NCBI GenBank assembly: GCA_031763025.1
Contig: JASSKH010000035.1
Span: 2,082,320-2,146,319 of the forward strand
DNA: 64,000 nt
Origin: Macrocystis pyrifera
Taxonomy: Eukaryota; Sar; Phaeophyceae; Laminariales; Laminariaceae
Reading direction: 5' to 3'
Shown: positions 28,458 to 63,746 of the stretch, one piece after another
Numbering within the stretch: position 1 is the stretch's first letter
How the letters are laid out: the number at the start of each line of letters is the position of its first letter
The notes under the pieces: generated by a model
What the model saw: the letters and a program-made list of their open reading frames with translations, nothing else
Database searches by the model: none
Told to the model about the DNA's origin: nothing
Made by a program: the position numbers and the translations under genes

Positions 28458-31071
28458 TCAAACAAAAGCGAGAACAACTCCCGATACCTTCACCACCATC
28501 AACACTTGGAAAGCAACCAAAAATGCAAACCCGGGGATGAAGCGGCCTCCTCCCCCCGCTCCATTGGTGGAAGAAGCCTCCTCCCCGGCCCCGGCCGGGC
28601 TGGCCGTTCCTTCCGCAGGGCTGGCCGTTTCAGCGGGACTGGTCGTCGACCCGGCGGGAGTGGAAACAGGACTGAGCGACGGAGTTTCGGAGCTGATCCC
28701 CCTTGAAGACGAACTGCTGGTTGGCGCGGGAGTCACGGAACCTGTCGATGGTGCGAGGGAGCCAGACGGGGCTGTCGTTGATGGTTCGACAGAGCCAGAA
28801 GGGGCAGTCGTTAGTGGTACGAGAGAGCCCGACGGGGCCGTCGTTAGCGGTGCGAGAGAGCCCGACGGGGCGGCAGAAGGCTGAGGCGTTTCTGTAGAAT
28901 TGTCTTCCGTCGCTACGAGGGTAGAAACGGAAAGTAAGGAAGCCGCGCCGAGTGGATGAAGCGGGAGGGAGGAAGGGAGGGAGGTGTGGTTCAGAGTATA
29001 CCTTCAGCCGGCTTGGGGTGATGGAGTGATCCCTGACCGTACCGCGTGGAATCTCTTCTCCGAATTTTTCAGGAGTTGAGCATGCATCGAGTGATTCTAT
29101 TTTCCGTCATGGGTTTTTTCGCACAGGAAATCGTTACTCGCAAGTGCGTACGCAGTGATCCCACCTAACGCAAAGGAGGTGGTGAAAAAGCGCTCCTGTA
29201 ATCGACATATCACAACACAAACACGAATATTTTTTTGTGACTTGACCATAGTATAGTGACCTGAAAAGAGAAGTCTACGTAGTGCGGGATTATCAACAAC
29301 CTACTGCTGGGAAGAGCGGGCAACAGTACAAGTACCATCACTACGGCTGACGTTTGGTTGGAACTCGAATCTACCTGGTAGATATTATTTGGATGGTGGA
29401 ATTAGCCAACCAGCTGACTTAGTCTTTATCCATCAAATACACATGTCAAGCCACAAACGCATTAGCCAGATGCAAATTTACTGCAGAATTACATAAATTA
29501 CCGCACGCAACTATAGTAGCTGTTATTGCTGTAGCAATTACCAAAAAAAAATCCCAAAATAATGTAAGCCAGTTAAACTCAGGCGCTAATGATCCAGCTC
29601 TTGGTTTGTACATCAATGTACATGGCACTTCAGACACATCGTCCATCATGCTATCATGCCATCATCGTCCATCATGCTATCATGCCATCATCGTCCATCA
29701 TGCTATCATGCCATCATACCCCAGCAGTCCGGGCTGCTTGGGATGGCCGGTGCAATATTCGATATCCACGTTGGACATTTTTACCCTCTGTACGAAGATC
29801 AAGTCCCAAAGGTGGTACGTAGGGTAGTTAACCCCTCCAAAACTGTACCCCCGTTTCCCAGCGACCAACCGGTAGCGTGGGGTATTTTGTTCGCAGTGTT
29901 TTAAAGGAGTTAGTCAACCAACCCTTAACCCTGAACTACTCACAATTTCAGTGATTTATCACGAAAACGGGACTGCTGTCCCAAAAGGGTTAAGAACTGC
30001 ACCGATTTTTTTGCTGGACCCAAACTACTTGGTAATAGATTATACTCTTTTTTGCGATTGCCCAAGGGGGGACAGTTAATTAGCACAGCAGCAGCACGAC
30101 TCACCTTCCCAGCACGAAGACAGCAGGCCGACCTCGTCTCCCGTGGCCCCGTCGTACTTGAACACGTCCGCCTCGCCTCCGTCCTCCACCTGAGCGCTAA
30201 CATACACGTCTCCACCACCATCGACCGCCACATGCAGGGGTGACAGCGCGTTGCCCACCCCGTTGGTGTCATCGTCTTCGCCAGCGACGATCGCCGAGAC
30301 GCTTTCCCCCGGAAACCACCACCTCAGCTCCGCTCCAGACTGCGAGTACTCCGTTACCTCCTGAGAACCCGCCCAGCACACGTAGATAAGGTAGTCGTCT
30401 TGGTTTACGGTTACTCCCCACGGACCCGAGCGGGTTCGCGAGCCCGAGCCACCGTTAATGAAAGCGTCGACCAAAGTCAAGTTTCCGTCCAATGATGTGG
30501 CGAACCGCCGAACCTCGTCGTCCCCGTTGATTGCGGCGTACAGCATGCCGTCGGGCCCGAAGGCAATCCCCAGCGCGCGGGTGTCTCCGAGAACCTGCAT
30601 TAGGTGCTCCCCCGTTGAGCCGTCGTACACCTCCACCCCGTCCGAGAGGTAGTTGGAGACGTACACGTTGCCGTCGGCGGCGACGGCAACGTCGTAGCCC
30701 CCCGCCGTCAGGTCTACGTCCCTGGAGGACGAGTCGGACGGGAATGTCTCCAGCAGGGTCCCGGTGAGATCAAACTTCTCGACTGTCCCCCCCGAATTCG
30801 ACGCCGCCGAGACGAAAATACTATCGTCGGCCACGTGCATTCCGCCTTCGGACTTGGTTTGATCGGTCAGAGTGCCCACGAAGGCGCCGTCGAGGGAGCT
30901 GTACTCCTGCAAGCCGTGGGCCGTGTCGAGGACGTACAGTGCCCCATCCTCGTGCACGCCGAGACCTTTGGGGCTGACCGGCGGGAAGCAGCTCGGAGTA
31001 TCGCTGTCGCGCTGCGAGCTAGCCACCGAGATGAGCGCCGACAGGCAGAAAGTCCATGCCACCAGCTTCAT
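28458..31071 (-). CDS. Secreted NHL/beta-propeller protein with mucin-like stalk and C-terminal anchor signal
   Basis: Exon 1 is 31071-30105 (donor GGAAG|GTGAGT) and exon 2 is 28912-28458 (acceptor CTCGTAG, TGA stop). The split codon G|CG gives Ala in the frame of ATEDNSTETPQ. The product is about 473 residues. Residues 1-19 (MKLVAWTFCLSALISVASS) form a signal peptide. Residues about 30-320 repeat short G-x-DG-x-LYV/VYVS units typical of NHL or related propellers (DGALYVLD, DGNVYVSN, DGMLYAAI, GGDVYVSAQ). A Ser/Thr/Pro/Ala stalk follows, with four near copies of APSGSL-type repeats. The end GFAFLVAFQVLMVVKVSGVV runs almost to the C-terminus, as in a GPI-anchor signal or single membrane segment. 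Likely a cell-surface or wall protein; ligand unknown. Confidence 0.82.
28913..30104 (-). other. Intron of the NHL gene with a minisatellite
   Basis: The 1.2 kb intron contains about three copies of a 26-base unit (cgtccatcatgctatcatgc...) at 29640-29716. A weak family D-like remnant lies at about 29925-29995. Confidence 0.7.
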
Positions 31072-32727
31072 GGTGACTGGCAGTCGGGCGATTGCTGCGG
31101 GGGGCGAGGGGCGCGAAAGGCGGGGGAAGAAGGGTGTAACGTAGGAAGGATCGGACTTCGCGAAAACCGGGTCAGGAGCAAGGGGGCGGCCTGAATATTT
31201 TTTTTAAGGTTCACACAATGACGATAACGACAAACAAACGAGGACAGCGCGCGACGGCGCGTGGGATGTTGTTGACGTCGTGACTTTTAGTTGAAAGGGA
31301 TATCCTACTACAGTACCGTTTCATACTACAGGCACGTGACTACGCGGTCAAGTGGGTAGTAAGGCATGTTCCCGACAAAAAGTTATTCGCGAGTTCGAAT
31401 ATTGGTGGCAACGCTTTATCGCCCTTGGAGTGTAGGTCCTTGTCAACCAAACAATCGTTACGTATGATTTTCTCTTAGATGCTAGCGCTTGGGGAGGGGT
31501 TCGCCCCGGAGATCGCTGACGAGACTGGATCGTTCGAGCTCCATATTGCCAGTATACACTTTGTTCGTTCGGAATAACTACAGGTACAGTAGGTCTGCGC
31601 GTGAGGTGCTTTTATAGACGTTACTGGCTACACCGATGACCGGTGTTCGTTCCACGCAGATACGTAAGTAATTTGTTTCGACCAACCATAACCAAGCAAA
31701 AAATTGACAGCAGCCGTCATCAATATCTTAATGTGGAAACCGAAACCCATACGCCTGAAGCATTTCACGAGACCAAAAGTTCGAAAATAGCAAAACGTTC
31801 GTAAAAATTAATAAGAAACTGGTAGCTCTGAGCCCATCCGAGACCAGCGACAAGCGACGCATCTACTCCCCCAGACTCGCCCGCGGCCTCCTCCTTCCGC
31901 CTCAGTCCCTTGTAGGCTGCCATCGCCGCTTGGGCTACACGCGTAGGCTTCAGTACCTATGGTTCGCTCGCTCCGTCACCAGCCTCTCAGCCGATCGGTG
32001 GCATCGAGCTTCCTCAGCGCATTGAGCAACGGCAACATCTCACACCCGAGCAGCGCCGCTATGTCATAGCTCCAACGCTTTGTAGTCATGTCGCTCCGCG
32101 TTATTCTGGGCCTGCTTGTCCCTCCGGGCTTGGCCCATCGTCTCCCCCGTCCGAGCAAAGAGAGTATAGATTTTTTTTTTCGAAGCAACCTGCTTTTCTT
32201 TTCTCGTACGTAGTTTTTTTTTTCCCCCGTCCAGAGTTGGCCATGGTATCTGACCGGGGTAGGTTCGGGCTCGTCACCAACTTAACGGATAGGGATGCGG
32301 TTTTCATCGAGGTCTCTGCAAAATGCAGAGCTACACATTCGTTGCCACGCATCTTCTCTACTGATAGGGATCGACAAACAACACGGCGCCGTTGCAAAAA
32401 GGCAAAACTCAGAATACCGTGTTTCGGTCGTTTCAGTCCTCTTGAAAGCGGGCCAAAAGCACGATGGCGTGTATATTGTTAAAAAAAACGAATACGCTTT
32501 TACACATATTGGGCGAAGTGTCAGCGCTCAACTCGTAACGTATCGCGCCCAATGTATAGCGCCATGCAGTATGTCTGGGCACTCGACTTTCAGGCCGTAG
32601 TGGGCGCGCAAGAGAGTCGCTTTTTCCTGGCGATATTTCAGTCTATTTAATGTTACGTTGGGCAAATACTTCACACCAAACAACTGGCAACTACTACTAT
32701 TAGTTGTGCACGGCTGCAACTACCAAA
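31072..32727. other. Upstream region of the NHL gene, with a possible decayed minus-strand gene fragment
   Basis: On the minus strand from about 32130 to 31780 two frames read protein-like: TTKRWSYDIAALLGCEMLPL, then VAQAAMAAYKGLRRKEEAAG. They are separated by a stop and a frame change. I do not recognise the family. It may be a pseudogene piece or two short exons. A tRNA-like B-box (gcgagttcgaatat) lies at about 31390. Confidence 0.3.
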
Positions 32728-38339: not shown

Positions 38340-41300
38340 ATGTCCAAGTACCCCAAGCCCGAGTCTTTCCCTGTTACCAAAACAAAGGCTGAATGGCGTG
38401 CGGAGCTATCTTCGACGGACTACAACGTCATTCGCAGAAAGGTAACAAGAGGCTCAACAGCAGCGGTAGTGTACTAGTCGGTGGCACCCTGTGCCCTCGC
38501 CGCTGGTGGTAGTGCCGTCCTCTCGGTAGATTTGTCGTGGGACCAGGGCCCACTTCCGAGTCGAGTCGACTCTGCATGTAAAGATCCTGTCGAACCTGCG
38601 ATCCGAAGCAGACAGTAGCCGTAGTACTTCTACTGCTGCTGCTTGTACTGCTCGTGCCGCGGCGTGGCACCATATGCCCTCCGCGCTGTTATAGTGGTAG
38701 CGCCGGTATCTTGGTAGTTTTTTTGTGGGAGCAGAGCCCACTTCCTTGTTCGGTAGACTCTGCGTCACCAGCACGTAAACAGCCTGTCGAACCTATGAGA
38801 TCCGACGCAGACAGATAGCGCCGGTGAGCATTTCCATTGCTGCTTGTACTGCTTCTTGTGCTTGCCGCAGCCGTTGTTGTTGTTGCAGCTTCGTGCAACA
38901 GCTACCATACACTGCTACGTACAGAAGTAGCAGTGTGTGAAAATTTCTCTCTTCAACAGCTATCGCATTGAACAAGCAGTAGTGCTCGTAGAAGTAGCAG
39001 CAGCAAGTACAATCAGGTATGATAAAATTTACGCTGTGTGACTTCTGTTTATGTACATGTTCCGGTCAGCTTGATTCGTCTTTTGTTGGCTTACTCTGTA
39101 CCAGTATCACAGAAAGCCTGCCTGTGGATCCCAACCAAGCTGATCCGCCAAGTGTCAACCCAACCTCTTAACTCTTCCCTCCGCACTCGGCACACCCTCC
39201 GCACGGTGACTGTTAATATTATACTGCAGCTGCTGTGCATACTCTACATGCCTGTGGTATCGTACCTTACGCGCTTCTAAATGACGATCTCCCGTTTACA
39301 TGGTTTGCTGGTTTGCAGGGCACGGAGGCGCCATTTTCAGGAGAATACGACAAGTTTTACCCGACCAAGGAGGAGGGATACTTCGTGTGCAAGGCGTGCA
39401 AGCACCCCCTATACAGCGCCGAGTCCAAGTTCAAGAGGTTGGTCGGGATTCGTAGTGCCATATTGCCTTTTTTGCTGTGTGGTTAACTTCGTCATGTTCC
39501 ACTTCTGGCTGGTTGCTGTGCTGCTGCTCTGTCGCCCCCAAGGAATGCCACCCTCTCCTTCGTCAACGTGGCACAGCGTAGTGTGGGGTGTCACGTATAT
39601 TTGATTTGATTCGAATTTGGTACGTATAGTAGCAGTACATGCCTGGTGCTAAACAAAACGCGCTCTTGTGTCTTGGGAGTTGCAGCAAGCGCACATGAGC
39701 AATCGGGGGGCAATGGGCGCATGGCGGGGAAAAATTATGTCTTGGATTGAATCGTAAGATGCCACATTTTATTAATGCATAGTTGAAGTCCTCGTACACG
39801 ATCGTATAGACAAGGGTACGGTCATCAGAAAGGCTTTCTTACAGAGGGTAGATACACTACTGCTGTGCCAGGTATATATCACACATACGGTACCAGTATT
39901 AAACACGGCTGACCACGAACAAGAAACACAGCAGGCAGATTATCATGTCCCAATCTCCCTATATATAGGAACCATTTTTATGTAATATTAATAGATAAAA
40001 CAATCCTTATATATCGGAACAGAGTGATACAAGGTACCTGGTATACAATTACCAGGTATAAAAATACCCCTGGTAAGGTATGTATATGTTTTATTGATAT
40101 TAATAGTGTATGTACTCTTGTACAGAGCACAACGCATTCAGCTGCTGAACCTTCGTACCGCTCAATGCTTTCTACAAGGTACCTCGTGCTCTCTGCTGCA
40201 GTGATGGGTGAAATGGCACCCGTCCGGTTTGTCGAATCTGGGAGCGCGTGGGTGAACAAGGTGTAAAACGTGCCCCCCCCCCCCCCCCCCCCCCCCCCGC
40301 CTACCCTTCACATCTGCCTTCGTGATCCCTCGCAGTGGGTGCGGCTGGCCAGCGTTCGACAAGTGCTTTAAGGGGTCGATAGTGACGGAAACTGACAACG
40401 CTTACGGCATGCGGAGGGTGGAAATCATGTGCGCATCGTGCGGCGGGCACCTCGGCCACGTGGTGAGTTGCTGGCGATGTAGGCAACCACTTTTTCGCTG
40501 TTTTGTCGATGAATGGCTTTCGACGTCGAAGGAGGCTTTGCGCTTTTCGCCGTGCCGGAACGCGCAGCGGAAGCTTGCGCTACGATGAAACATTTACCCG
40601 AATACCTAATGTATGTAGCGGAAGTACTGACACCTGACAGCGTTTTTGACGAGAGTACCGTATAACACTATCACAGTAGGGTGATAAGATAGCACACCCC
40701 CGCGGACGATTTTCAGAGCTGGATTTCTCGACAACGGGGAGGGCGTACTGAATACGGCGAGCGATGCGTCTATGCAACCTTCTCGACGAAATATTTCCAA
40801 AGCCACCATTTTCGTGGTGTGTGCTCCCCTTAAGGCATGTTTTGGAGGATACCGGGTCTGAAATTCGCCCCAGGGTGTATTATCTTGAGTGTTGCGTGTT
40901 ACACGGTAGGAATGAGACGGCAGAGGGTGTGGCACGGTCCCCGAATCGGTCTGGCAGCCGAGCCCGGGCGCCTTGTCACTGTCACCGCCTTGAGCACGTT
41001 TTTCTCTTTTCTCTCATCTCTCTTCTTGCTTCTCGCCTTGTTTCTGTTTTAGCTTCCTTGCCCCCCCCGCCGTCCTTTTCGCCGTTATCTTCCTCTCGTT
41101 CGTGCTGCCTCGTGTTCCCCTTGAGCATGTGTGCGTTTCTTGCATTTAGCAACCTTTCTGATTCTTTTGCGTCACTTGTATTACGTTTCATTTCTCATCT
41201 GGTTTCTTCTTTTTTTAAGTGTATTTTTGTTGTTTTTTTCTGTTTCGGGTTGTGTTACTGACTGTGTCCTACCTGGTACCTGGTACGTTGGCATTTCACT

Positions 41301-48984: not shown

Positions 48985-49143
48985 TCAAACTACGTCGAAG
49001 GAGGCCGTGTTATTGACCGCCTGCAGAAGCTTGTGTCGCAGCACAGACTCTTTGTCGTAGTCGGGTACATCGAGCTGGAAGAAGCAGGTGTGGGCCGCGG
49101 GCAGAGCCGGTGATCTCGGCTGGCATCGTACCATGATCTCCAC
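48985..49143 (-). other. Terminal exon: HECT catalytic cysteine
   Basis: It starts after ctcactccag-type acceptor sequence in phase 0 and reads PRSPALPAAHTCFFQLDVPD through LRHKLLQAVNNTASFDVV to the stop. The Cys of HTCF is at the position of the thioester-forming residue of HECT C-lobes. Confidence 0.88.
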
Positions 49144-49413
49144 CTGGAGTGACAAGAAAGAGAGCCGACGCAAATGACAAAAAAAAAAAAACGAAAAACG
49201 AATTACAACCGAACAAATAACGAACCAAGACACGAAACAAATGAACAGGAACAAAACCAATCAACAGAAAGCGGTGAACGTTAAAATGAACGAAAACCGA
49301 AACAAAAACGGAACAAATTTCGAAACAACACGAACATAAAAAATGGAACAGCAAAAAAAAAACCCGTCAATAAACGACGAACGAAAAAGCAACAAAAGCT
49401 GAAAGAAACTAAA

Positions 49414-49508
<95 letters not shown>

Positions 49509-51200
49509 GGGGGGGAATCCCTTGCCACGCGGGCGCGCGGCCACAGCGTACATCCCGATGAAGCGGGAAGCATTGCACCGCACCGCACCGCACCGCACCG
49601 TGCCTTGCACAGCACCGCACCGCACGGCATCTCGCGTCTTACCTTGGCAGCCGAAGGTGTTGGAAGCGACGGCGTTCCACAGACGAAAATCAAGAAACGT
49701 CGGAGGGCGTCTTCCGGGAGAGACAGAAGCAACGTCTTCATCCACTGCGGGACCTCGCTACGAGCCGGGAAGCCGAACCACGTCAGTACCGCCCACTACC
49801 TGTGACGAGCGGAGCGGGGGGGGGGGGGGGGGGGGGGGGGGGGAGGAGAGGGAGGGGGGGGGGTACTCATATGCTACTAGCCTTAGTCAGTGGACTATTG
49901 ACCACGCATCCCTTTCGAGACGAGGGAGATGGGGCCTAGTCATTTTTGGCTTGCCTAGAAGTCACTTAACCATTGACCACGCATCCCTTTCGAGACGGAG
50001 CACAAGAGGGAGCGGGGGGGGGTTATCGGGGTTTCAACCACCGTTCGATCAAAAACATCTACTTGGTAGCGCGCCGAGGAGAGGGGGGGTTCTCTCGCCT
50101 ACGGCGATACCCATACAAAAAACATCTTAAGCATTTCATATATATGTAAGTATATTTATCGGCATGCTTCGTAGTACACGGTAAGTGTAACCACCTACCT
50201 CACCATCACAATCTCCACTACCACAACTACGTCTACCACCACCACCACCGCAGTTGTGTATACTCGTACCTTTCCCCGAAATACACAAAAACACAAAACC
50301 CATCTGCGGGTCGCTAAACGTTCAAAAACTATCCTATGGTTACACGAGTACGGCCATGACGTGCTCCGTCCTGGCATTGCAGGGATGCGAGCGCCTATGG
50401 TCGTACGACTACGGTCATGCATGATAATGAGTACCCTCTCCCATCACCCACCACCACCCACCACCACCACCACTACGACCACCGGCGCAAAAAACAAAAA
50501 AACACAGCAATGCACGACTGACGTTATTACCTTTCCTTAAAAACCACAAAAACACAACAACAGCAACAACAACAAACCACAGAACCCCGTACCAGGCAGG
50601 TGTTTATGCACGCACACACCTGCGGGCCGCTGACGTGCTCCTCTCCGCACAGCAAGACCCTCCAGTCGGCGTGCGACAGCAGCCCCATGAAGGGAGCCGC
50701 TCCGGGGGACAGGTCTCTCAAAGCCCGGGCGAAACCCTCCTTGAGGGCCTCAAGCGCAGGCTTGCGCGATCCCACCAGGATGAAGCGAGCCTTCGCGGAA
50801 ACGTACTCGGCTTTGTTCCCGTCCGTCACTGCTCCCTGGAGGCAGACAGCAAGGACGGTGCGTCGTCGTCAGAGCGAGGCGGTGGCAACTCGGGGGATTG
50901 GCGTGTACGTGTGTGGGGGGGAGAGGGTGGGGTGTGTACCCGTGCCACGGATGGCCGCAGTCGCATGATCATACAGCAGACCCCTCGCATCCTCGCAACG
51001 CCGGCACGGAGCAGGTCGGGTAATTCACCGACCAGGCCAGGACATTTTTTTATCCTGCACAAAGCGCGAAGCTCCGAGAGGTGTTCCGCGAGTCGCATGA
51101 AGGGTGAGCTGCATCTTCCTTCTAAGAACCGCTTGTAAGGCGAGCTTTCATTGCGTGTGGATGACAGCGTTTAATTGATGGGGTCGGGAGGGGGCGCGGT

Positions 51201-51246
<46 letters not shown>

Positions 51247-54200
51247 CTGGGGGACGGATATCGCAGCGGTCAACGGTTCGGCCAAGACACGAAGAGAAAC
51301 ACTTGGTCCATCACTCTGAACGGGAACACAAGCACCGTTTGGAATCTGGTACGAGTATCAAACACAGCTTATCTTCTCGGTCAGATTGGCATGCCGGTCC
51401 TTATGGTTGTTGTGTTCGTTCTCATCTTGTGCTCTACCGGCATACACCGGCGAGCAAGAGCACGCCACAAGCGGTCTCCTATACGAGTACAATGGGCGCC
51501 CGCCCGGTGTAAACAAACGTCAACAAGGTGTCCACGCTCAAACGTCTTACTTCTTTTTTCCGACCTTGATCTAAGTAACTCTATTGCATAGGGATCTAGA
51601 CTTGGTCCCACTGTCGAGCTGTGTTTCTTAACCCAACTTTCTCACTGTTTTCGCCGATCTGAGTCGATTTTTCTCAACATTAATGGTTCTTAAGCTGCGG
51701 GCGCCCACTGCTGTAGTCAGTGTGCTGCACGCAGCATGCAGTCAGTGGACAAATTCTTGGTATGACTGTGTAATCTGCACTCCTATGAGGGTTAAGAACT
51801 GTTTTTGTCAAAAATGAACCCTTCTATTACGGGGGACCATAGTTAACAGGACCAAATTTTGTGAGTAAAAATAGGTGAATATATAGGTTTTTATGTATAC
51901 CATAGGTCCTATTAACTATGTACCCCCGTAATTGGGCAAAAACTGAAGTTCCATTTTGGGGACAAACCACTCAAATTCTAAGTAGCCTGTCCCCCAGGAC
52001 GGGACTGTGCACTGTCGTCACAAAAGGGGAGTGATACTATTTAATATTTGACGAAACGGTTCTGACACTTCGGGACAGAGCGGTAAGCTGCTGTACGATA
52101 GTGTAATGTGCACCGCCGTACATACATACGCACCCTGTCGGGGTCGCCGACGTCCTCGAAGTCGAAGTCCATCTCTCGGATGCCGGTGTTGGCCAGCACC
52201 CACTTGAGGTTCTCAAACCGCTGGGGGTCGAAATCCTGCGCAGTGAAGTCGCAGCGGCAGCACGAAATAAGCGGCACAGATAAAGCCGCACAGACAGGCA
52301 GCACAGACAAGCATCACAAAAAATAAGCGGCACGAAACAAGCGGGACAAAAACGAGCAGCACAAAAACAAGCGGCACAAAAACAAGCGGCACACACACAC
52401 AAGCGGCAGCGGGACCAGAGATGGGGGTGAGGGGCCAAGCACCAGGCACGCCACTACTGTACGGTCAGCACCAATTGGTGGTTCAACCATGGCAGAACTA
52501 CAGTCCCGTTTCGGGAGACAATACCACTCAAACTCAAAGCAACGTCAACTTTTGTCCCTCAAAACGGGAGCACAAGCAGTTTGTTTTCGCCCTACAAGAG
52601 CTGAAATATTCAATCTCCTTCCACAAAAAAACCCGGCTTTCCTGCAGCACGCGCCATATAGCACTCGTATACGTACCACTCTTGTCGCAGAATATAGTGA
52701 ACACTTTCATATTATTTTTTTTATCGAAGCGGTCCTTACATTTTCGTCCGTCAAAGGGGTCAAACCGCGGTCTACATGTAGTATTACCAATATTGACATT
52801 GCGGGGGACCATAGTAAATAGGACCAAATCTTGTTAGTAAAACTAGGTTTATATATAGGTTTTTAGGTATACCATAGGTCCTATCAACCATGGACCCCCG
52901 TAATAGTAGCATATTGCGTGGGGTTTAGGGGCGGGGAAGGAGGATAAGCCGCGGTGGCGGGGTCGTAAAAAAAAAACGCTCGTTTCTTGCACGTATACGC
53001 ACTTTGGCAAGTACCGGGCACATGTCTTGACCCTTCTGGGACAAACTACCCATGAGCAGTCCCGCTTGGGTGGACAAACCACTCAAATTATTCGTAGTCT
53101 GTCCCAAACACGGCGGTGCTGCAGTCTTGAAAGCGTAAAAAAATGTATACCTGGTAGTACCTTGGGGGGTATCGTATAGCACCTACGGTACAACAAATAT
53201 CGCACGACTATCCAAACTACCAGCAGCGCAGGCATTCAATACGGCAGTTCGTGTGTTTTGACATTTTACCTCACGCTAAGTCCAGTTGCGCAGGTCCCGC
53301 AGTCAAAACCACAATATTTCCCGAAAAGGTATTATACCTGGCGTTTTGCTGCGGTTTGGCCTGGTTACGTACGTACGCTCTCGCCCGCAGGTCTCGCAGC
53401 GAAATCGTAACCTTTTCCACACTGTAGGTTTTGAGGTTTGATCTCTTCACGCAAACTCTCGCCTGCAGCAGGTCTCGAAGCGAAATCGTCATATTTTCCG
53501 TACTGCACATACGTACCAGTATCTGGTAGATTTTGAGGTTTGACCTCCCACCACCAGGCCTCGCAGCGAAACACTGCTGTCGAAGTACCGTCCATGCTGT
53601 ATCTGGTGGGCTTCGATGTTTGATCTCTCGCGCAAATCCACCCGCAGGTCTCGCAGGTAAATCGTAACTTTCTCCATAATACGCGCGATCCAAATATCGC
53701 ATTTTAAAAACGGGGGAGCATAGTGATCAGGGTGCATCATACACACAAAAACCTGTATATTCCAGTATTTTCACTAAGCATATTTGGTCCTGCATTACAA
53801 TGTCCCCGCGAAATAGTATCACACACAGCTTTCCAAGACGAGTGTTTCGACCAAATCCTCCATCTCACGGCTCATGTTCCTATTTTTATATCTTAATACC
53901 GCTGTGTACCGTATCCGGTAGGTTTTGATGTTTTGACCCCTCTCGCTCAATTCCACCTGCAGATCTCGCAGCGCAGCCTCCGTTCCCGTGATGAACTTGA
54001 ACACGCTCGGCGCCAAGCGGCTGCCCATCCTCCTCCCCTCGTACAAGCACTTCACCATCGCCCGCCCCACCGCCCGATACCTGATCGACGTCAAGGGCAA
54101 GCAAGGGCGAACCATCGAAAAGTTCAATGAAAAAATATCGAGCGTATTCGGTACGGTCGTCATCGTCGAGCGTCATGATTGCTGGCTGGCTACATGGTAA

Positions 54201-57200
54201 AAACGCTCGTCATGCGAAACAAGCTTTCGTATTGAGATGTGGTGTGCCTTTTCGCGGTTCCGGAAATTTATGTTTCGAGCCTTTACGTCTGTCTTACTCG
54301 TTGATGAACTAGATATTGGCGAAGAGCTAATGCAACAACAGCAGCGACAACAACAGCAATCACGAGGACAGCAACTCTCTCTCCATGCGTGTCTTCATCT
54401 GTTGGGTCTCTTGTCGCCAATTCTAAGTCTGTCTCTTGTTGTCTGTCTCCCCCTCTATCGATATCGGATTCGTCACTAAGCTTCGATAGGTTTCCCCTCT
54501 ACGATATCCCTCTACATTATCATAACATCCCAAAAGGGGACGTGCCCGCGATGATAAAAAAATAACTGCCCCCCCCCCTTCCCCAACCTCAGTCCAAGCC
54601 CAAGCTCCGTCACCTCGCAAGCTGCTTTTCGGAGTAGCCCCCCGGGCGCGCCGTCGGCAAGAACTTCCCCTTCCCCCCCTCCCCTCCCCCCCCCCCCCCC
54701 CCCCCCCCCTGCAGAAGACGCCCCCTCCATGAGCAGCTGCTGTGCCTCCTGCTGAGCGTTGAACTCTTCTTCCCCCCCCTCTCTTCCTCCTCCTCCTCCT
54801 CCTCCTCCTCCTCCTCCCCCTTCTCCTCCTCCTCGGCCTTCCCCTTCTCCATTCCTCCTCCTCCTCCCCCTCCCCCCCCCCCCCCCCCTCCTCCTCCTCC
54901 TCCTCCTCCTCCTCCTCCTCCTCCTCCAGAGGAGATGGGTTCAAGATACACCTGGTTTTCGTCCACGGAGCTAACAACCGTCGCTCCGCTTCCTGAAGTG
55001 GCCGACGATATCAAAGTCCTTAGTAAAGCACCAGTACGCCCAACACGATGACCACCACCACCACCACCACCACCACCAACAACCCCACTCCCCTCACCAC
55101 TACTACTATCCCCAGCGCTACCAGCACCACCGCCGCCACCACCGCCGCCACCACCGCTACCGCCACCGCTAGCAGCTGCTCCTCTAAATCGGGAGGCAAA
55201 CGCTTTCTCAGAGGGGTCGGCCTTGCTAGCGCGGTTTCCACTAGCGGGGGAGGCGGCGGCGGGAGGGGGATGCGGGGGGGGGGCGTCACAGTCCTCGAAC
55301 AGACCGAACCTCGGCAGCATCATCGCTTCGAAGAGGAGGGTGTACATCTGACCGGGGCAGCAGCGAAGAGACCAGGGAAAAAAAAGAAGAAATGATGATT
55401 CGCACACAACGGAAGGGTGGTGGGGGTGCACTCATGTCATGCATGGCTGTAGTCGTATATATGACGATAGACACTCGCATCCTTACAATGCCGGGACGGA
55501 GTACAGCAGCGCGTCTGGTTTTCGCCGACACAGACAGGCCTTGCTTGCACCAAGCGCGAAGCGCCGCAAGAGGTTTCAGCGAGTCGCACGCGAAGGGTGA
55601 GCTGCATCCTACTAAGAACCACTTGTGAGGCGGAACTTCTTGCATATGGATGACAGCATTGAATTAATTGAGGAGGCGGGGGGGGGGGGGGGGGAAGGGG
55701 GGGGTACATCTGATTGGGGCGGCAGCGGGGAGACCCGCGGAAACGGGGGGTTTGCATACACGCAGGCGAGAGGGGGAAGGGGCGACATCTGAGCGGGGCT
55801 GCAATTGGGAGACCCCGGAAACACTTGCGGTTTGCATACACGGCGCGAAGGGAGGGGAGGGGAGGGGAGAGAGAGAGAGGGTGGAGAGAAACAACATGCT
55901 ATTGTGTGTACACTCTGCGTACCTCGAGCAGTGCCAGGTTGGCCGGGGGGAGGGGGAGTTATATGGGGGGGAGGAAAACAACATCAACATTTTCTCAGCT
56001 CGGATAGATCATACAGGTCATGCAGGTCATAATCTATCTATCTACAGTAGATCATCTAGTTCGTCACCTGCCGCTCGTTGTGAGAGGTTGTGCAGGACCT
56101 GCAAGGTACAGATAGACGGAACAAGTGCCACTAGATCTTGGCAGATTATACGGCTGCCACCCGGCAACATGAGCTAGATCATACAGATGATAAATATCAT
56201 ACAGATCATACACGATCGGGAAAAGACTATATATCTGCCTCGAATGGGCTATAGATCATGAACTGTAGACGATCTGTCAAGAGGTGTGTGACATTCCCGG
56301 AAACGCAAGGACCGTTTGGGTATCGATACCCTGGAAAATCTAGATTATGGCATGCGAATCTCTTCTGTCCGGTGTTGTCGATCTTTGGACTAATCAAATT
56401 ATTAACGGTCTATACCTGCCCTGAGAGACGTAGATTATGGCAGGGGGATCTGACCTACTCGAATTAATAGATGATTCATTGGACCGACCAAAACCGCCTC
56501 GCTGAAGACGCCCTGCACTCATACGAATCGTGGTGCACAGTAAATCGTGCAGCATAACGAAAGATCACCTAATCTTCCCCTGAAATGTCTAGATCATAAC
56601 ACCGAGGTCTGGTCCGGTGTGTGGATCACGGACCGATCAAATCACCACATACGAGCTGTCCCTGAAATCGTTAGATCATGACAGGGGATCTGATCAGTCC
56701 CTTAAAAGATTTAGATCATGACATGGGGATCTGATCTGTACCTGAACGGTCTAGATCTTGACAGGGAGATCTGATCTATACCTGAAAGATCTAGATCATG
56801 ACACGGAGGATCTAAGCTGTCCCTGAATTATTTAGATCATGACAGGGGGATCTGATCTGTGCCCGAAATATCTAGATCATGACATGGCGATCTGATATGT
56901 CCCTGAACGATCTAGATCACTGGGCCAATAAAATAAAATAAAAAAATAAAATAAAATAAAATAAATAAAATAAAATAAAATAAAATAAAATAAAATAAAA
57001 TAAAATAAAATAAAATAAAGTAAAATAAAATAAAATACAACAAAATAAAAATGAAATAAAATAAACTCACCTCGCTGAGGATTCCCCCTTCGTCGATGCC
57101 AGCCTCGCCTTCGAACGTTATCTTCAAGGGCCGTCGCAGCGCCGGCCCCACAGCCTCCGTGCACATCAGCTCCAGCACAGAGGGCACCAGGTAGCGGCTG

Positions 57201-60200
57201 TCCCTCCGAACGGTCCACTTCAGGGGTCCGCTCGACTTAGCCTCGTCGCGCACGTTGCGGAAGAGCGCCCTGAGCGATGGTGGGGTCATGTAGTGTCACG
57301 CGACACGACAATCCAAGACAATCTGAGTTGTTGGGTGGACCCCGTCCTGCGTCTTTGGTGACAAGACGGTCTACTGCAGTACTTCAGGTTATGGCGATCA
57401 AGTTAATGTGAGAGCAACAACGAAACATCAACAACGAGAAGGCAACGCAAGAAACTAAACGAATAGAAAAGACAAGGCAAGAAACTTGGGGCCGCAGTAC
57501 GTACGTAGGGCAGCTCTATTTCCGTAGTTCAATTACAATTCAGTAGATCAACTACAATTCAGTAAGGTCAACTACGATCTTAAGTATTTTGTCCCCAACG
57601 CGTTAGCGCAGTAGGTCCAACTATAATTCCAAGTAAATTGTCCCAAAAAGTAGGCGCAGTGCTCATAGGTCAACGGTAGTAGTCCCATAATTCCACGGAT
57701 CATCTACAGATCATCCATTCCCACAGACAGTTGATGATCTAGATCGTTCAGGGCAGATAGATGTATGATCTGTATGATCTAGCTCATATTGCCGGGTGGG
57801 AGTCGTACGACCTGCTTGACCTAGGACAGGTTTCCTGTGCACAGATTCTGCACAGCACCTCATAACGGTAGATAAAGGATCTATCTGATCTATCTGATAG
57901 ATTATCTATCCGTAGATGATTGATCTGATCTATCTGTAGATGATCCATCTGATCTATCTGTAGATGATTGATCTGATATATCTGTAGATGATCTATCTCA
58001 TCTATCTGCATATTTTCTATCTCATCTATCTGTAGATTATCTATCCTATCTATCTGTAGATGATCTATCTGATTTATCTGATCTATCTGTAGATGATTTA
58101 TCTGATCCATCTGTAGATGATCTATCTCATTTATCTGTAGATTATTTATCTGATCTATCCGTAGATTATCTATCTGATCTAAATATAGATCATCTATCTC
58201 ATCTATTATATCTATCTGATCTATCTGACCTGTCCAAGCAGTTTTTCCCCAGAGCGTGTGTACAGTAGACATACTCTAATCCAAAATAGTACGGCCTCCG
58301 ACACGCGGGCACAATAAGTCAATACAGTCTCCATGGCAGTGTTACCCCCAAATCTCGCAGACGGAGAGGGAGAACAAGCCGGGCGCTTGTCCACACAGCC
58401 TACTATAACCCCCCTATGCCCCATGCGATTGTTTTTTTTTCATTACCCACCTCACGGCCTCCAGCTTGCGGGTCTGCTCCAAAAGCGCCCCTTCCTCCTG
58501 CAGCCTCGATACGTGGGAGACTCGGAAGTAGTCCGCCTGGAAAAAAAAAAACGACGAAAAAGAAAGAAAAGTACACACACACAAAGCGCGCGACCAGTTG
58601 GTTGTCGATCGCGTTAGTAGGAGGAGCAAGAGGATGACGAGGAGGAGCGCCCAGAACCATATTCGCATCTCCCGAGCACGCCGACCTGCCCTCTCGACGG
58701 CGCTCTCAACGGCTCTCCTTGGGCACTTTCAAGGACACTTTCAACAGAACTCTCCCACGAACAGAACCCAAGGTATTTACCGATCCCCCACCTGGAGGGC
58801 ATCCACGGTCCTCTCACCGATCCTCTCAACGGCACTCCTAACGGTCTTCTTAACGGCACTCCTACCGGCCCTATCAACAGCACTCCCGACACCAATCCTA
58901 ACAGCTCCCTGTCAACGGCCCTCCCAACGGTACACTTCCTAACACCCCTCCTGACGGTACTACTCTGAAACAGCCTTTTTTAGGCCCTATCAATGGCACT
59001 CCTAACGGCACAACTCTAAAACGGCCATTTCAACGGCTCTACCAACCGCACTCCTAACGGCACAACCCTAAAGCGGCCATTTCAACGGCCCTATCAACGG
59101 CACTCCTGGCGAAACCCCTCCCCCACGGCGACAGCGCTACACCAAAGGGCAAAATAAATTACAGAACACTATTCCCATACCCCACACCACCCGACACCAC
59201 GCCAACCCACCTGGAGGGCATCCGAAGCCCTAGGCCGCCTCGCCGGGTCCGCGTCAAGAAGCGACCGGAGTAGGGCCGCCGTGGCAATGTCTGCCCCTCT
59301 CGGGATCGCAACACCCACCCCGCCGCCTCCCTCAGCAACCGGCAAGGGGCCGGTGGGGTGGTCGGGGAAGTGCATGTGAAACAGGACAGCTCCTAGGCTG
59401 TACATGTCTGATGCAAGGGACGAGGGTTTCCCGGATTCCACCTGTGCATTCGGCGGGGGGGGGGGGGGGGGGATTTGGTAGGGGAGGGAGAGGAGGAGCG
59501 GGAACGGGGCAGGCGGGGGGGGAGGGGAGGGGGCAGGGAATATTTATTACGGGGGACCATAGTAAATAGGACCTACGGTACACACAAAAACCTATATATT
59601 TCGCCAATTTTATCAACAATATTTGGTCCTATTTACTATGGGCACGCGTAATAGGTACAGAGAGGGGAGGGAGGGGGAGGTCGCGGGGCGGGAGGGTTGG
59701 TTTGAAACAGAAGGGAACGAGGGGGCAGAGGCGGGGGTGGGGAGGCGTGTGATTTGTCGTCTGGGTCTTGGCAAACAAGCAGCAGAAGCAGAAGAAGAGA
59801 GGTAAAAAAAAGGTTGTTTGGTTTTCCTCAGCTGTTGTTTGGCGCAAAAGGCCGACCACTTACCCCGAGGGTTAGCCGACTGAACAACAGCACGAACCTC
59901 CCCCGACCCACCCGCCCTCTCGAAAGGCAGGAGAGAAACAGAGGCCAGCAACCCTAGGACTGAACTGCTGCTGAAAAATATGGTCCCACCGCGAGGGTGC
60001 GCGGTAAAATAGGTTGCTGAAAAAAAAAAGAAGGATCAAAGCGGGATTCACGTTGTTGTTGTTGTTGTGGTGGTTGTTGTTGTTTTAGTTTTTTTGTGCC
60101 TAAGCGCAGCCGTGACGAAGGGGCTTGGGCCTTAACTCCTTTAGTACATCAGTCCCGATTTGGGGACAAACCAGTCTAATTCCAAGTCATTTGTCCCCAA

Positions 60201-63200
60201 ATCGGGACTGCGGTACTAAAAGGGTCAACAAGAGGGTCAACCCTTTTTAGGGCTGCACTCCCGGTGTGTGGGAACAAAACACTTGGGATTAGTGAAGGAT
60301 TCAGGTTTTTGTACAGAGTTAAGACGCGTGTCGACGAGGGAAGAAATATGGCTCAAGTCTTCTAGCGATAAAAATGAAGGCACGCGACCGTGGTGGGGAG
60401 GGGGAAGGAGACCCAATGGTTGATCTGAGTTACGACTATTGATAGGAGGGAGGGAGAAAAAGAGGGGCTAGGATAACATGTGGGATGAAGAAAAACTAAA
60501 ACTAAAACAAAAAACTGAAACGAAAAACAGGGCACCACGAAAAGAGTGAAGGACGATTAACAAACAAAAAAATGGGAACAAGAGCAATCGATACTCCCTT
60601 CCCCTTCCCTCTCTCCCCCCTCTTCTCACCACGTTTACCCCTCTCCGCCCCAACCCCCCCACAACCAATCCACCCGCCCGCCCACCCACCCCCCGCCGAA
60701 CTCCCCGACCCCAATCACGCAACACACGCGTGTCACACCACCACACCCACCTCAGGCGCCATGAATCCATGCGTGCCCACCAAGCTCGTCATCGTAGTCT
60801 CCGACTCCGACATTTGTCTGAAAACCCTCGACTCGCCGCCATCCTTACCACCACCACCACCACCGGGGACGCCAGAGGAACCATCCCCTGCCATAGACAC
60901 GCCTCCTCCTCCTCCTCCTCCTCCTCCTCCTCCTTCCGAACGCCCTGCCGCCGCCGTCCCAGCAGGTATGGGGGCGTTTGCCCTGAGCGTGTCTTTGCTC
61001 ACATCGAAATCAGCCAGCAAGAAGCGTCCGTCCGCATGGACTAGAATATTCCCCGGCTGGCGAGCAGGTAGGGGAGGGGAGGGGAGAAGAGGGGAGGGGA
61101 GGGAGGGGAGGCAGGGGGTCAGTGCTGTTGGAGAGCACCCACGAGTATTCGTAACCCCTGCTCGAAAAATTAGAGAGGCAAGCCCCAAACCTAACCGTAC
61201 AGGCTACCTCTCCCCCCAACCCTGCCCCTAGAGCTGAATCGCGCCTTCAGGTAGCTGCATAAAGAGCTTATCATAGCTGCAGATTCCAAACTTTTGATGA
61301 GATCAACCACTCGATCGGCCGGCCTCAAGGCTAACGTGTTGCATGAACATTTAAGGATTGTTGCGTCCTATGTGTGGATACCATGTCACCGCAACCAACA
61401 CGCCCACCCACAGAGTCGAAACCCTGATGCGTTCTTCGAGAAAGCATTCTGGAAGCTTTGCTCGGGAACCTTGGGGGATTGTCTCACGCCTGGACTTTGC
61501 CACGGAGCCTTATCCTCACGTTTCGCCGACGGGTCTTAGGCGGCGGCTGCACTGCCTGATGGATTACCCGCAGCGGGATCTAGGAATGTGCGGTGAAACT
61601 AAAATCGCGTGTGTGGCCTCGCGAGTGTAGGCAAGCTCCCACAAATAGCAGCGGAAACAACGAGAACAAGAGGATCCAATCCCACCCCCACCCACCATCA
61701 CCACCACCACTAACCCCCCCCCTCCCCTCCCGCTCCCCCCCTCCCCCCCAAAAAACAGAGGCGATTTTCACATCCTGGAACAAAGTGTCTCTATGAGGGG
61801 TAGAAACGGTGCTGCGTCTCGAAAGGGATGCGCGGTCTACGGTCAAATGACTAAGGCAAGCAACAAATGAGTACCCCCCCCCGCCCCCTCCGCCCTCCTT
61901 TCCCCCGCACACACCTTAATGTCCTTGTGGATTACCCCGACATCGTGCAGGTGCATTACCCCGCACATCACCTGCACATAGAAAAAAAAAAAACATCCCC
62001 CGCCGACCGATCGATGCATGCATGGGTGCGGTCCGCCACGAGAAAAAGCGTTCACAGGCGGAGAGAGATCGGGAGCAAGAAGAGAGTGAGACAAGAGAGT
62101 GAGCCAGCAAAAAAGCAAGGAGCAGCTACAGCACAAGTCGCAGACGAGAAGGCAGACCGTCAACCGTAAACAGCCTCGTCTGGATCTGGATCTGCATCTA
62201 CAGTCGACCCATATATCCAGATTTGGGTTATATCCGGATCTTGATCTAATAATAGATCGGGATTTGGAGTTGGATCTAGATCTAGATACTGATATAAATC
62301 TCGAGTAGGATTAAAAAAAATCTAGATCTGGATCTGCATGGGACTACCGTAGATCATACAGGTGAGGAATTTTCTGTCGTCTTAAATATTTACATTCATG
62401 GAAGTGGGAATCGATTATCTGTTCACGGTGCGAGGTCGACGCGGTCATGTGCGGACGCCGAGAAGACCAAGGCCGTCCACTATCAGTTCCCCGCTTGCAC
62501 GTTGATGTCAAGACAAGACAAGGCAAGGCAAGACAAGACAAGACTGGCTGTCCTTGGTTCATCTGTTTGGAACCATCCACACCAGCCTGTTGTCGAGGTT
62601 CACGCTGTGGATCTTATGTTGCCGCATGGGAGTCGCAAAAAAAAAATCGGCATGATCTACGACAGGCTCGCTTGTGAATTGGACCCGTACTACTGCACAC
62701 AGATCCGGCACCACGTATCGTATCGGCAGGTTGGGATCTATCTGATCTATCTGATCTGACCGATGTTAACCAACCTCTGTGAGACCGCACTCCCGACATG
62801 GAGACGAAACACTTGGGGAATTAGAGTAAGATTTAGGTTTCTGAACACTGCACTACCAAAAGGGATACCAGGTACTTCGTATCCGCGAACAACAGTCTGA
62901 TATGGAGTGGCATCAGCGCGGCACTCCTGGCGACAGAGTTCCGTCTCGCTCTCGCGCTGTGCGCCTTCAGGCCTCCCACCCGCCCACACACGTCCACAAA
63001 AAAAAAAAGAAGCAAAAACGTTACTAGACCTCCGCTTTCGGTGCCCGTCGATTCCACAGAACGGTACTACTACAGCAGTACACTTTTTTTCATGCCCTGC
63101 ACCGTTTTGTGCTGCATCAACTTTTTGTGTCCTAGGTTTTTAGGCTACGTGCAGCACCAACTTTTGAGCTCTCGATTTTCCCGCACAACCCTCTCCCCCC

Positions 63201-63746
63201 CCCCCCCCCCCCCATTGATGCAAGCAACGCCTACCTGGTGGAAACCCGACCTGCTACTCCGTCCCGGCATTGCAGGGGCGCGAAGGCATAACTATGGTCA
63301 TACGACTGCGGCCATGCACGACCTGAGATCACCCCCCCCCCGCCCCCGCCCCCGCCCCCGCCCCCCCCCCCCCCACCCCCCTCTTCGCATATCTCGCGTA
63401 CAGATACCCCCTCCCCTCGTGCACTGCCTTTTAGGACTCCACTTCCGTTTTGGGGGGCGGATCACGTGAAATGCAAGTATTACCGGGGACCGTAGTAAAT
63501 GGGACCAAATTTTGTTAGCAAAAATAGGGAAATATATAGGTTTTTGTGCGTACCGTAAGTGCTACCAGGTATTTACTATGGTCCTCCGTACTAGTTCGTC
63601 CCCAAAACGTGATATCTGCAGTCCTAAAAGAGTTGATGCAATTAGTCCGTCCAACACACCTGTCGAAACGCCTCCTGCAACTCCCACGGCTGCCTGTCTC
63701 GGGCCTTGAGCCAATGCCTTAGGTTCCCCTGGGCACAGTACGGAAA
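48985..63746 (-). CDS. Protein kinase-HECT ubiquitin ligase fusion, multi-exon, 5' end beyond the window
   Basis: Twelve exons: 63746-63660, 61971-61915, 61056-60751, 59441-59211, 58536-58451, 57269-57071, 55347-54614, 54080-53957, 52235-52134, 50835-50620, 49753-49643, 49143-48985 (TGA). Every junction has GT/AG and compatible phase, giving about 803 residues here. First three exons plus the fourth: kinase C-lobe (PYCAQGNLRHWLKARD; VMHLHDVGVIHKDIK joined to PGNILVHADGRFLLADFDVS; SLVGTHGFMAPE; SDMYSLGAVLFHMHF; DADPARRPRASDALQ). Exon five, ADYFRVSHVSRLQEEG, links to the HECT domain: LRRPLKITFEGEAGIDEGG, MYTLLFEAMMLPRFGLFEDC, YRAVGRAMVKCLYEGRRMG, RFENLKWVLANTGIREMDF, NKAEYVSA, LSHADWRVLLCGEE, RRFLIFVCGTPSLP, and LPAAHTCFFQLDVPDY with the catalytic Cys. 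HECT enzymes form a ubiquitin thioester on that Cys. The kinase N-lobe lies outside the window. About 15 residues of the usual HECT C-lobe entry are absent between exons 10 and 11, possibly a missed small exon. Confidence 0.88.
49418..49514 (+). repeat. 90-base G homopolymer in the penultimate intron of the kinase-HECT gene
   Basis: G runs without a break from 49418 to 49507, then one T and seven more G. It lies in the intron 49642-49144, where the transcript would carry poly-C. Confidence 0.9.
49815..50010 (+). repeat. G-headed repeat, short form, as an imperfect dimer
   Basis: A G run (about 49815-49843) and ggggggggggtactcat lead into ccttagtcagtgg, actattgaccacgcatccct and ttcgagacg. A second unit follows (gcctagaagtcacttaacca, ttgaccacgcatccctttcg, agacggagcac). 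It lies within an intron of the kinase-HECT gene. Confidence 0.65.
50348..50432 (-). repeat. G-headed dispersed repeat, truncated
   Basis: On the minus strand: gtactcattatcatgcatga, gtcgtacgaccataggcgct, atgccaggacggagcacg. The usual G run is replaced by gggtgatgggagag. Confidence 0.55.
50925..51175 (+). repeat. G-headed dispersed repeat, long form
   Basis: It follows a G-rich lead. Blocks gtgtacccgtgccacggatg, cccctcgcatcctcgcaacg, ccggcacggagcaggtcggg, agcgcgaagctccgagaggt and ctgcatcttccttctaagaa match the copy at 55420. Confidence 0.65.
51204..51246 (+). repeat. G homopolymer of about 43 bases
   Basis: This unbroken G run lies just 3' of a G-headed repeat, inside intron 52133-50836 of the kinase-HECT gene. 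Confidence 0.85.
51826..51932. mobile_element. MITE A, 107-bp palindromic element
   Basis: It begins attacgggggaccatagtta and ends ctatgtacccccgtaat. It abuts a family D element on its right and is intronic in the kinase-HECT gene. Confidence 0.85.
51937..52028. mobile_element. Family D palindromic element
   Basis: aactgaagttccattttggg and gacaaaccactcaaattcta form the left half; cctgtcccccaggacgggac forms the right arm. Confidence 0.55.
52490..52565. mobile_element. Family D element, partial
   Basis: gaactacagtcccgtttcgg and gacaataccactcaaactca, then gtccctcaaaacggga. The palindrome is short and imperfect. Confidence 0.45.
52798..52904. mobile_element. MITE A, 107-bp palindromic element
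   Basis: It begins attgcgggggaccatag and ends catggacccccgtaat. It is intronic in the kinase-HECT gene. Confidence 0.85.
53048..53130. mobile_element. Family D element, diverged
   Basis: gcagtcccgcttgggtggac and aaaccactcaaattattcgt, then gtctgtcccaaacacggcgg and tgctgcagtc. Confidence 0.5.
53290..53680. repeat. Repeated 'caggtctcgcagcgaaatcg' segments in a kinase-HECT intron
   Basis: Five or six copies of a unit containing ctcgccygcaggtctcgcag and gcgaaatcgtaacc, with spacing of about 70-80 bases. One more occurs at about 53640. The gcaggtctcgcag word also resembles the exon end near 53960 (ctgcagatctcgcag), so part of the unit may derive from this gene. Confidence 0.55.
53707..53815. mobile_element. 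MITE A, diverged copy
   Basis: aaaaacgggggagcatagtg at the left, acacacaaaaacctgtatat in the middle, tatttggtcctgcattacaa at the right. The arms no longer pair well, so this is an older insertion. Confidence 0.65.
54614..55347 (-). other. HECT N-lobe exon with in-frame poly-Gly and poly-Glu insert
   Basis: The exon opens MYTLLFEAMMLPRFGLFEDC and closes YSEKQLA, whose last two bases join the next exon in phase. Between them 200 residues of low complexity stay open in one frame: Pro/Ser/Gly runs, DENQVYLEPISS, about 25 Gly, then about 12 Glu and another Gly run. The typical HECT domain has only a short loop here. Confidence 0.75.
55420..55690 (+). repeat. G-headed dispersed repeat, long form
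   Basis: gtggtgggggtgcactcatg, gcatggctgtagtcgtatat, cactcgcatccttacaatgc, gggacggagtac, cttgcaccaagcgcgaagcg, then gtgagctgcatcctactaag and gatgacagcattgaattaat, ending in a G run. It is intronic in the kinase-HECT gene. Confidence 0.7.
55998..56280 (-). repeat. Family E repeat, inverted relative to 57690-57905
   Basis: On the minus strand it carries the blocks of the other copies: gatctgtatgatctagctca-like, ttgccgggtgg, atctgcc and ctcacaacg. Confidence 0.6.
56480..56925 (+). repeat. Minisatellite of ~48-base units (tctagatcatgacaggg...)
   Basis: At least seven units of tctagatcatgacaggggga tctgatctgt-type sequence followed by ccctgaaa. It lies within a kinase-HECT intron between two inverted family E repeats. 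Confidence 0.8.
56929..57065 (+). repeat. (AAAAT)n microsatellite
   Basis: About 27 imperfect aaaat units end six bases before the donor of exon 57269-57071, so this splice site sits at the edge of a simple repeat. Confidence 0.9.
57690..57905 (+). repeat. Family E repeat
   Basis: It matches 47880-48110 and 62610-62762, and matches 55998-56280 on the opposite strand. Confidence 0.7.
57855..58235 (+). repeat. GATC-rich satellite (gatctatctgtagat units)
   Basis: An irregular array of gatctatctg and tagatgatctatct units with period about 24. Its minus-strand frame of Ile-Asp-Gln repeats is a by-product. Confidence 0.85.
59546..59652. mobile_element. MITE A, 107-bp palindromic element
   Basis: It begins attacgggggaccatagtaa and ends ctatgggcacgcgtaat. 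It is intronic in the kinase-HECT gene. Confidence 0.85.
60134..60228. mobile_element. Family D palindromic element, best-preserved copy
   Basis: The arms tttagtacatcagtcccgat, ttggggaca and tgtccccaaatcgggactgc, ggtactaaaag are nearly perfect reverse complements around aaccagtctaattccaagtc. A diverged copy follows at about 60240-60330. Confidence 0.75.
61800..61882 (-). repeat. G-headed dispersed repeat, short form
   Basis: On the minus strand: G run, gtactcatttgttgcttgcc, tagtcatttgaccgtagacc, gcgcatccctttcgagacgc. It is intronic in the kinase-HECT gene. Confidence 0.65.
62610..62762 (+). repeat. Family E repeat, diverged, with GATC-rich end
   Basis: ttgccgcatgggagtcg, catgatctacgacaggctcg, cacagatccggcacc and ggatctatctgatctatctg correspond in order to the copy at 57690. 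Confidence 0.5.
63225..63340 (-). repeat. G-headed dispersed repeat, truncated
   Basis: On the minus strand: G-rich run, gatctcaggtcgtgcatggc, gcagtcgtatgaccatagtt, caatgccgggacggagtagc, then aggtcgggtttccaccagg. Confidence 0.6.
63429..63635. mobile_element. Family D element interrupted by MITE A
   Basis: The left half ccttttaggactccacttcc, gttttggggggcgga and the right half tcgtccccaaaacgtgatat, ctgcagtcctaaaag pair when the intervening MITE A is removed. Confidence 0.65.
63479..63592. mobile_element. MITE A, variant copy inside a family D element
   Basis: taccggggaccgtagtaaat at the left, gcaaaaatagggaaatatat in the middle, tttactatggtcctccgta at the right, with the gctaccaggta insertion shared with the copy at 34038. 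The ends are uncertain by a few bases. Confidence 0.7.

Follow-up and report, generated by a model that had tools for sequence, protein, structure and literature searches.

The 64,000-nucleotide stretch of Macrocystis pyrifera DNA analysed here (hereafter the window; positions 2,082,320 to 2,146,319 of contig JASSKH010000035.1, assembly GCA_031763025.1) carries on its minus strand a gene in which a protein kinase domain is followed by a HECT ubiquitin ligase domain. We rebuilt the gene model directly from the window DNA, joining the exons and checking the frame and the splice ends. Twelve minus-strand exons, running from 63746 to 48985 (window numbering, used throughout), give one open frame of 817 residues which ends with the TGA stop codon at 48985 that closes exon 12, and GT..AG ends are present in all 11 introns. 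An alternative start in the first exon, six residues downstream of 63746, yields an 811-residue version. The protein has the motifs HKDIKPGN, DFD, MAPE and HTCF, along with a Phe four residues from its C-terminus. The original prediction, made from the letters alone, had proposed twelve same-strand exons with GT/AG introns in a single frame over this same range, joining kinase motifs through APE to the HTCF cysteine in one polypeptide, and our reconstruction agrees with it on each of these points.

The first four exons encode the kinase. Exon 1 (63660..63746) specifies the segment FPYCAQGNLRHWLKARDRQPWELQEAFRQ, which precedes the catalytic loop and is identical to protein P0001 of the brown alga Scytosiphon promiscuus at 26 of 29 residues; exon 2 (61915..61971) bears the HKDIK catalytic loop; exon 3 (60751..61056) continues with PGNIL, DFD in place of DFG, a Gly-rich insert and GTHGFMAPE; and exon 4 (59211..59441) covers the C-lobe from SDMYSLG to DPARRPRASDALQ. 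Exon 5 (58451..58536) spans the boundary between the two domains. The original prediction regarded it as a 28-residue linker, and while an exon of that length does exist, it is not a mere linker: in the alignment the last kinase residues, ADYF where other members have HPYF, are followed by the first residues of the HECT domain (RKLEAVR), the domain limits being taken from the structure model of a relative. Exon 5 is identical to P0001 at 27 of 28 residues, a proportion matched by exon 12 (50 of 52) and reached by no other exon. Compared with two further relatives, P0022 and P0023, it is identical at 26 of 28 residues, with exon 2 slightly higher (18 of 19).

The remaining exons encode the HECT domain. 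Its N-lobe is distributed over exon 6 (57071..57269, KITFEGEAGIDEGGILSE), exon 7 (54614..55347), which also includes a long Gly/Glu-rich loop, exon 8 (53957..54080, RYRAVGRAMVKCLYEGRR) and exon 9 (52134..52235). These are followed by exon 10 (50620..50835), which runs from VTDGNKAEY to DWRVLLCGEEHVSGPQ, exon 11 (49643..49795), which runs from WAVLTWFGFPARSEVPQWMK to PSAAK, and exon 12 (48985..49143), the C-terminal part with the catalytic Cys (AHTCFFQL) and the terminal SFDVV. A spliced alignment to P0022, a EukProt protein, reproduced the exon limits except at two places: it splits exon 7 within the Gly/Glu-rich stretch and lengthens exon 10 by 27 nucleotides. The loop sequence of exon 7 is uncertain because a part between two G runs resembles the relatives in another frame. 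The same alignment agrees on the limits of exon 11, but the acceptor there is unusual: the exon starts after GTAG, and its reading is displaced by one base relative to P0001 (VVAVLTW in P0001, WAVLTW in the window), which could reflect either a surplus G in one of the G runs or an acceptor site that has shifted. Intron 11 contains, at 49418-49514, an almost continuous tract of about 90 G bases (C when read along the gene), which together with the G runs in some exons makes homopolymer length errors in the assembly possible. Other repeats in the non-coding parts of the gene include a minisatellite with a 24-nucleotide period in intron 5 (57869-58230) and a dispersed element of about 107 nucleotides, possibly a short mobile repeat, with copies at 51826-51932, 52798-52904 and 63479-63585 that are 76-89% alike and an inverted copy at 59545-59654 (81-82%).

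The gene is larger than first noted and extends upstream of the window. Searches by tblastn with relatives of the next 20 kilobases upstream located the kinase N-lobe at 67623-67441 and 66350-66216, along with further middle-region exons and Kelch exons; the N-lobe is missing from the window protein because its exons lie past the window edge. The spliced alignment to P0022 begins at an ATG at 89364 and ends at 48988, just short of the stop codon; of its 1915 aligned residues, 1337 are identical. This places the start about 25 kilobases upstream of the window and gives a whole gene of about 40 kilobases. The upstream exons of 1, 2 and 9 bases in this alignment are artefacts.

Profile searches for PF00069 and PF00632, which had been suggested with the original prediction, place both domains above their cut-offs. 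The HECT domain (PF00632) scores 141.5 bits (cut-off 23.9, 6.1e-41) over residues 558-810 of the 811-residue version, and so reaches the C-terminus of the protein, and among solved structures the window protein is matched best by NEDD4, in the HECT region (4.5e-23). The kinase is detected from the window exons alone (3.5e-23), and with the upstream exons added PF00069, N-lobe included, rises to 108.3 bits (cut-off 31.7). The assembled upstream pieces also match Kelch PF24681 with 109 bits. In our alignment table the window kinase keeps Lys, Glu, the HRD Asp, Asn and the DFG Asp. It lacks the DFG glycine, having DFD instead, and catalysis by the kinase is thus not assured, although this substitution is not decisive for activity.

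When only the kinase-HECT junction was used as query, six matches were returned, three of which have both domains: Scytosiphon P0001 (1219 residues), Tribonema minus P0002 (506 residues) and a Kelch-matching metagenome protein. The other three are an Ectocarpus HECT fragment (P0004) and two kinase-only proteins. P0001, which agrees with the window at 77% in the junction region, is a brown algal protein with the same domain order, as had been sought. A second search, from the Kelch-matching metagenome protein, found both domains in 20 of the best 120 of 153 matches (query included), 16 of these 20 proteins having Kelch PF01344 and one being from Leishmania martiniquensis. The junction of that protein in turn retrieved 23 matches (query included; the best 7992 candidates by shared words were scored), all 23 with both domains and 20 with TPR repeats, including proteins of Leishmania, Porcisia, Leptomonas, Novymonas and Phytomonas. 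Another of the 23, the metagenome protein P0146, is an LRR-kinase-HECT protein with DFE, HTC and a very long branch in trees; in it a related core apparently carries LRR as a third type of N-terminal module. No viral relative was found by a scan of viral contigs with the family alignment, as none of its 31 pattern matches was confirmed by tblastn. Within the 537-megabase M. pyrifera assembly the gene is likely to be single copy: around other HECT matches of the assembly, 18 segments of ten kilobases each yielded no kinase match and a best HECT match of 45 bits, a few of the 44 genome HECT matches falling just outside these segments.

We tabulated the catalytic residues of 44 proteins, 43 of them with a C-terminus (P0017 has none) and 43 with a kinase (P0002 has none). 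Ectocarpus P0004 was left out, as it has no kinase part and its C-terminal end does not align. The terms algal-type and trypanosomatid-type are our own labels; many rows are metagenomic, and on the algal side there are organism names only for P0001, P0002 and P0004. Every one of the 43 members with a C-terminus has the HECT Cys as well as the Phe at position -4. The catalytic (HRD) Asp of the kinase is lost in six of 43 members (P0019, P0137, P0140, P0141, P0143 and P0144), of which the last five are trypanosomatid-type proteins that keep the HECT Cys and form one clade in the kinase tree, and the losses thus represent few independent events. DFD is found in the window protein, P0001, P0020, P0021, P0022 and P0023, while the remaining algal-type rows and P0146 have DFE, except for P0019, which has NFS. 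Since the HECT Cys is never lost and the kinase Asp sometimes is, the HECT domain may be the output of these proteins and the kinase its built-in regulator, a modest suggestion because the rows with kinase loss are few and mostly of one clade. The pattern slightly favors a switch function for the kinase.

Two structure models were available. The first has a predicted template modelling score (pTM) of 0.48 and is of low quality in the final portion of the HECT domain; the second, of the relative P0012, is better, with a mean predicted local distance difference test value of 80.8 and a pTM of 0.44. In the P0012 model the kinase matches DAPK3 over residues 159-437, with other kinase structure matches ending at 428-432, and the HECT domain matches AREL1 over 442-834. 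Based on these match limits, the end of the kinase and the start of the HECT domain are about ten residues apart. In a relative, the model shows the middle region as long helices, probably a coiled coil.

We consider it probable that the locus is one gene of about 40 kilobases encoding one polypeptide (Kelch, helical middle, kinase and HECT) of a conserved kinase-HECT family, in which the kinase acts mainly as a cis switch or primer of the ligase. In the mechanism we propose, the Kelch propeller and helices would recruit partners or clients and may oligomerize the enzyme, while the HECT domain, judging from its residues and fold, would accept ubiquitin from an E2 at the HTCF cysteine before passing it to the client. 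The kinase, some ten residues away and beside the HECT N-lobe, would phosphorylate the HECT domain, the junction or a bound client, thereby setting the activity of the ligase. Several points weigh against this proposal. The gene has been read from genomic DNA alone, and the protein models of Ectocarpus P0004 and Tribonema P0002 start inside the HECT domain and at MAPE, respectively, and so do not display the full fusion. The helical middle was modelled in a relative of the window gene, the low pTM of both models means that they do not support a contact between kinase and HECT domain, the window kinase has DFD for DFG, and five of the six degenerate kinases belong to a single clade.

The first two of these points would also fit a kinase gene and a HECT ligase gene that are adjacent and read as one by chance. 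We rejected this reading and regard it as highly improbable: the kinase ends and the HECT domain starts within exon 5, an exon nearly unchanged in Scytosiphon, and both domains occur in one chain in Scytosiphon, EukProt and metagenome proteins, including P0007, whose 1286 residues form an open reading frame filling its 3903-base contig, which leaves no room for introns, so that kinase and HECT domain lie in one uninterrupted frame. Together with the upstream spliced alignment, these observations support a single gene, as originally predicted. Whether the algal and trypanosomatid proteins represent separate fusions that merely resemble one family is a different question. A HECT domain must sit C-terminally to work (PMC4327156), which constrains the domain order, and the N-terminal modules differ (Kelch, TPR, LRR). 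A hidden Markov model (HMM) of the linker only ranked trypanosomatid linkers first, weakly, the best scoring 9.5 bits (P0145) against 4.4 for the best reversed decoy, and one of its top matches, P0139 with 8.4 bits, falls outside the linker. Despite these points we view separate fusions as unlikely. The 43 kinases of kinase-HECT proteins form one clade against 45 other kinases, with a Shimodaira-Hasegawa-like approximate likelihood ratio test value of 99, in a tree built by a quick method with long branches flagged, P0146 above all, and with an outgroup comprising the first 45 of 82 kept kinases (102 tried) from the same searches rather than a broad eukaryotic sample. A HECT HMM built from algal-type rows only scored 205-241 bits to 22 trypanosomatid-type HECT domains and 148 to P0146, but only 36-37 bits to two other HECT domains of the same genome; HECT domains of the PDB reached 130 bits at best (WWP2) with a full-length profile, which is a different profile. 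In addition, Leishmania P0024 and P0012 are colinear by BLASTP with 29% identity over 696 alignment columns. These comparisons suggest one family with swapped N-terminal modules and favor one origin, or a transfer, of the fusion. It is also possible, though we hold this more tentatively than the single-gene proposal, that the kinase-HECT protein is a single ancient enzyme, older than the split between stramenopile algae and kinetoplastids or passed between them, with an inseparable two-domain core, an exchangeable N-terminal receptor and the kinase as a built-in throttle.

Two other functions are conceivable for the single chain. A client held by the Kelch domain might be phosphorylated by the kinase and then ubiquitinated by the HECT domain, making the protein both writer and reader of a phosphodegron; the N-terminal propeller and the presence in the window protein of all five kinase residues and the HECT Cys would suit this, but phosphorylation seems dispensable in the six members that have lost the catalytic Asp and keep the HECT Cys, and we doubt that this is the main function. 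We think it even less likely that the algal kinase is mostly a pseudokinase, serving the HECT domain as a scaffold or allosteric domain rather than as an active enzyme. The replacement of the DFG glycine by Asp or Glu in the window and most algal-type rows, and the same six Asp losses, point in that direction; however, all five catalytic residues are kept in 36 of 43 rows, including the window, P0146 departs from this pattern at the Glu column alone, where the alignment may be wrong, and the DFG glycine is retained throughout the 22 trypanosomatid-type rows. A kinase that acts mainly in cis on its ligase is the function that we prefer.

Ten other open reading frames of the window were scanned for domains. 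A long one on the plus strand (23386-24891) encodes, close to the C-terminus, a RING-like zinc finger (PF17123, 1.8e-8; PF13639 below cut-off) and is possibly a second ubiquitin ligase gene. An exon-like frame at 40256-40585 on the plus strand has a SelR domain (3.5e-15), presumably of the methionine sulfoxide reductase B type, and a 375-residue frame at 30079-31203 on the minus strand shows weak similarity to NHL repeats (1.2e-4) and still weaker similarity to SMP-30-like sequences.

The kinase-HECT fusion has a precedent. Parsons et al. (2005) described LmjF35.4000 of Leishmania major as a protein with a kinase, three TPR motifs and a HECT domain, and called it Leishmania-specific (PMC1266030). 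The original prediction knew of no named kinase-HECT family; this holds for the name, as our literature searches, which left subscription papers mostly outside, gave no algal or named kinase-HECT family among the matches listed, but the protein itself had been reported in 2005. The architecture of P0024 suggests that it is LmjF35.4000 or its ortholog. The P0024 kinase (residues 726-1005) is closely matched by PDB 9gmp_A, deposited under the name Map kinase kinase-like protein, and its TPR part (residues 122-248) by PDB 8ye5_A, called TmrC; no paper on TmrC, 8ye5 or 9gmp was found among the matches listed. A study of L. mexicana ubiquitin enzymes lists 12 HECT ligases with the cysteine, none of which is termed a kinase in the part of the text available (PMC7647121), and the Phytophthora infestans kinome paper has no occurrence of "hect". 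Within the searches made, the Kelch-kinase-HECT form in algae appears to be undescribed.

Crosstalk between phosphorylation and ubiquitination normally proceeds via separate proteins, whereas here a kinase and a HECT domain are about ten residues apart in one chain. The recurrence of this pairing in distant eukaryotes offers a natural system for cis control of a HECT ligase. The Leishmania curiosity of 2005 may become part of a wider family, and a single molecule may long ago have brought together two major modes of protein marking.

Among known systems, NEDD4, WWP1, HUWE1 and AREL1 have the HECT fold and catalytic Cys in common with the window protein, but to our knowledge the N-terminal modules of these classical HECT ligases are not kinases. 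Plant U-box kinases do combine a kinase and a ubiquitin-ligase module in one chain, and the U-box has no catalytic cysteine. P0001, P0022 and P0023 have the same kinase-to-HECT order and are 50-96% identical to the window exons; P0022 and P0023 share the Kelch part while P0001 lacks it, and the loop in the HECT N-lobe, acidic or Ser-rich in these three, consists mainly of Gly/Glu runs in the window protein. LmjF35.4000 likewise has a kinase and a HECT domain in one protein. However, trypanosomatid-type proteins retain the DFG glycine where the window protein has DFD, and the residue preceding their HECT cysteine is Gly, Ser or Ala instead of the Thr of the window protein. Because its N-terminus is Kelch, where LmjF35.4000 has TPR, the algal gene is a variant and not the Leishmania type itself.

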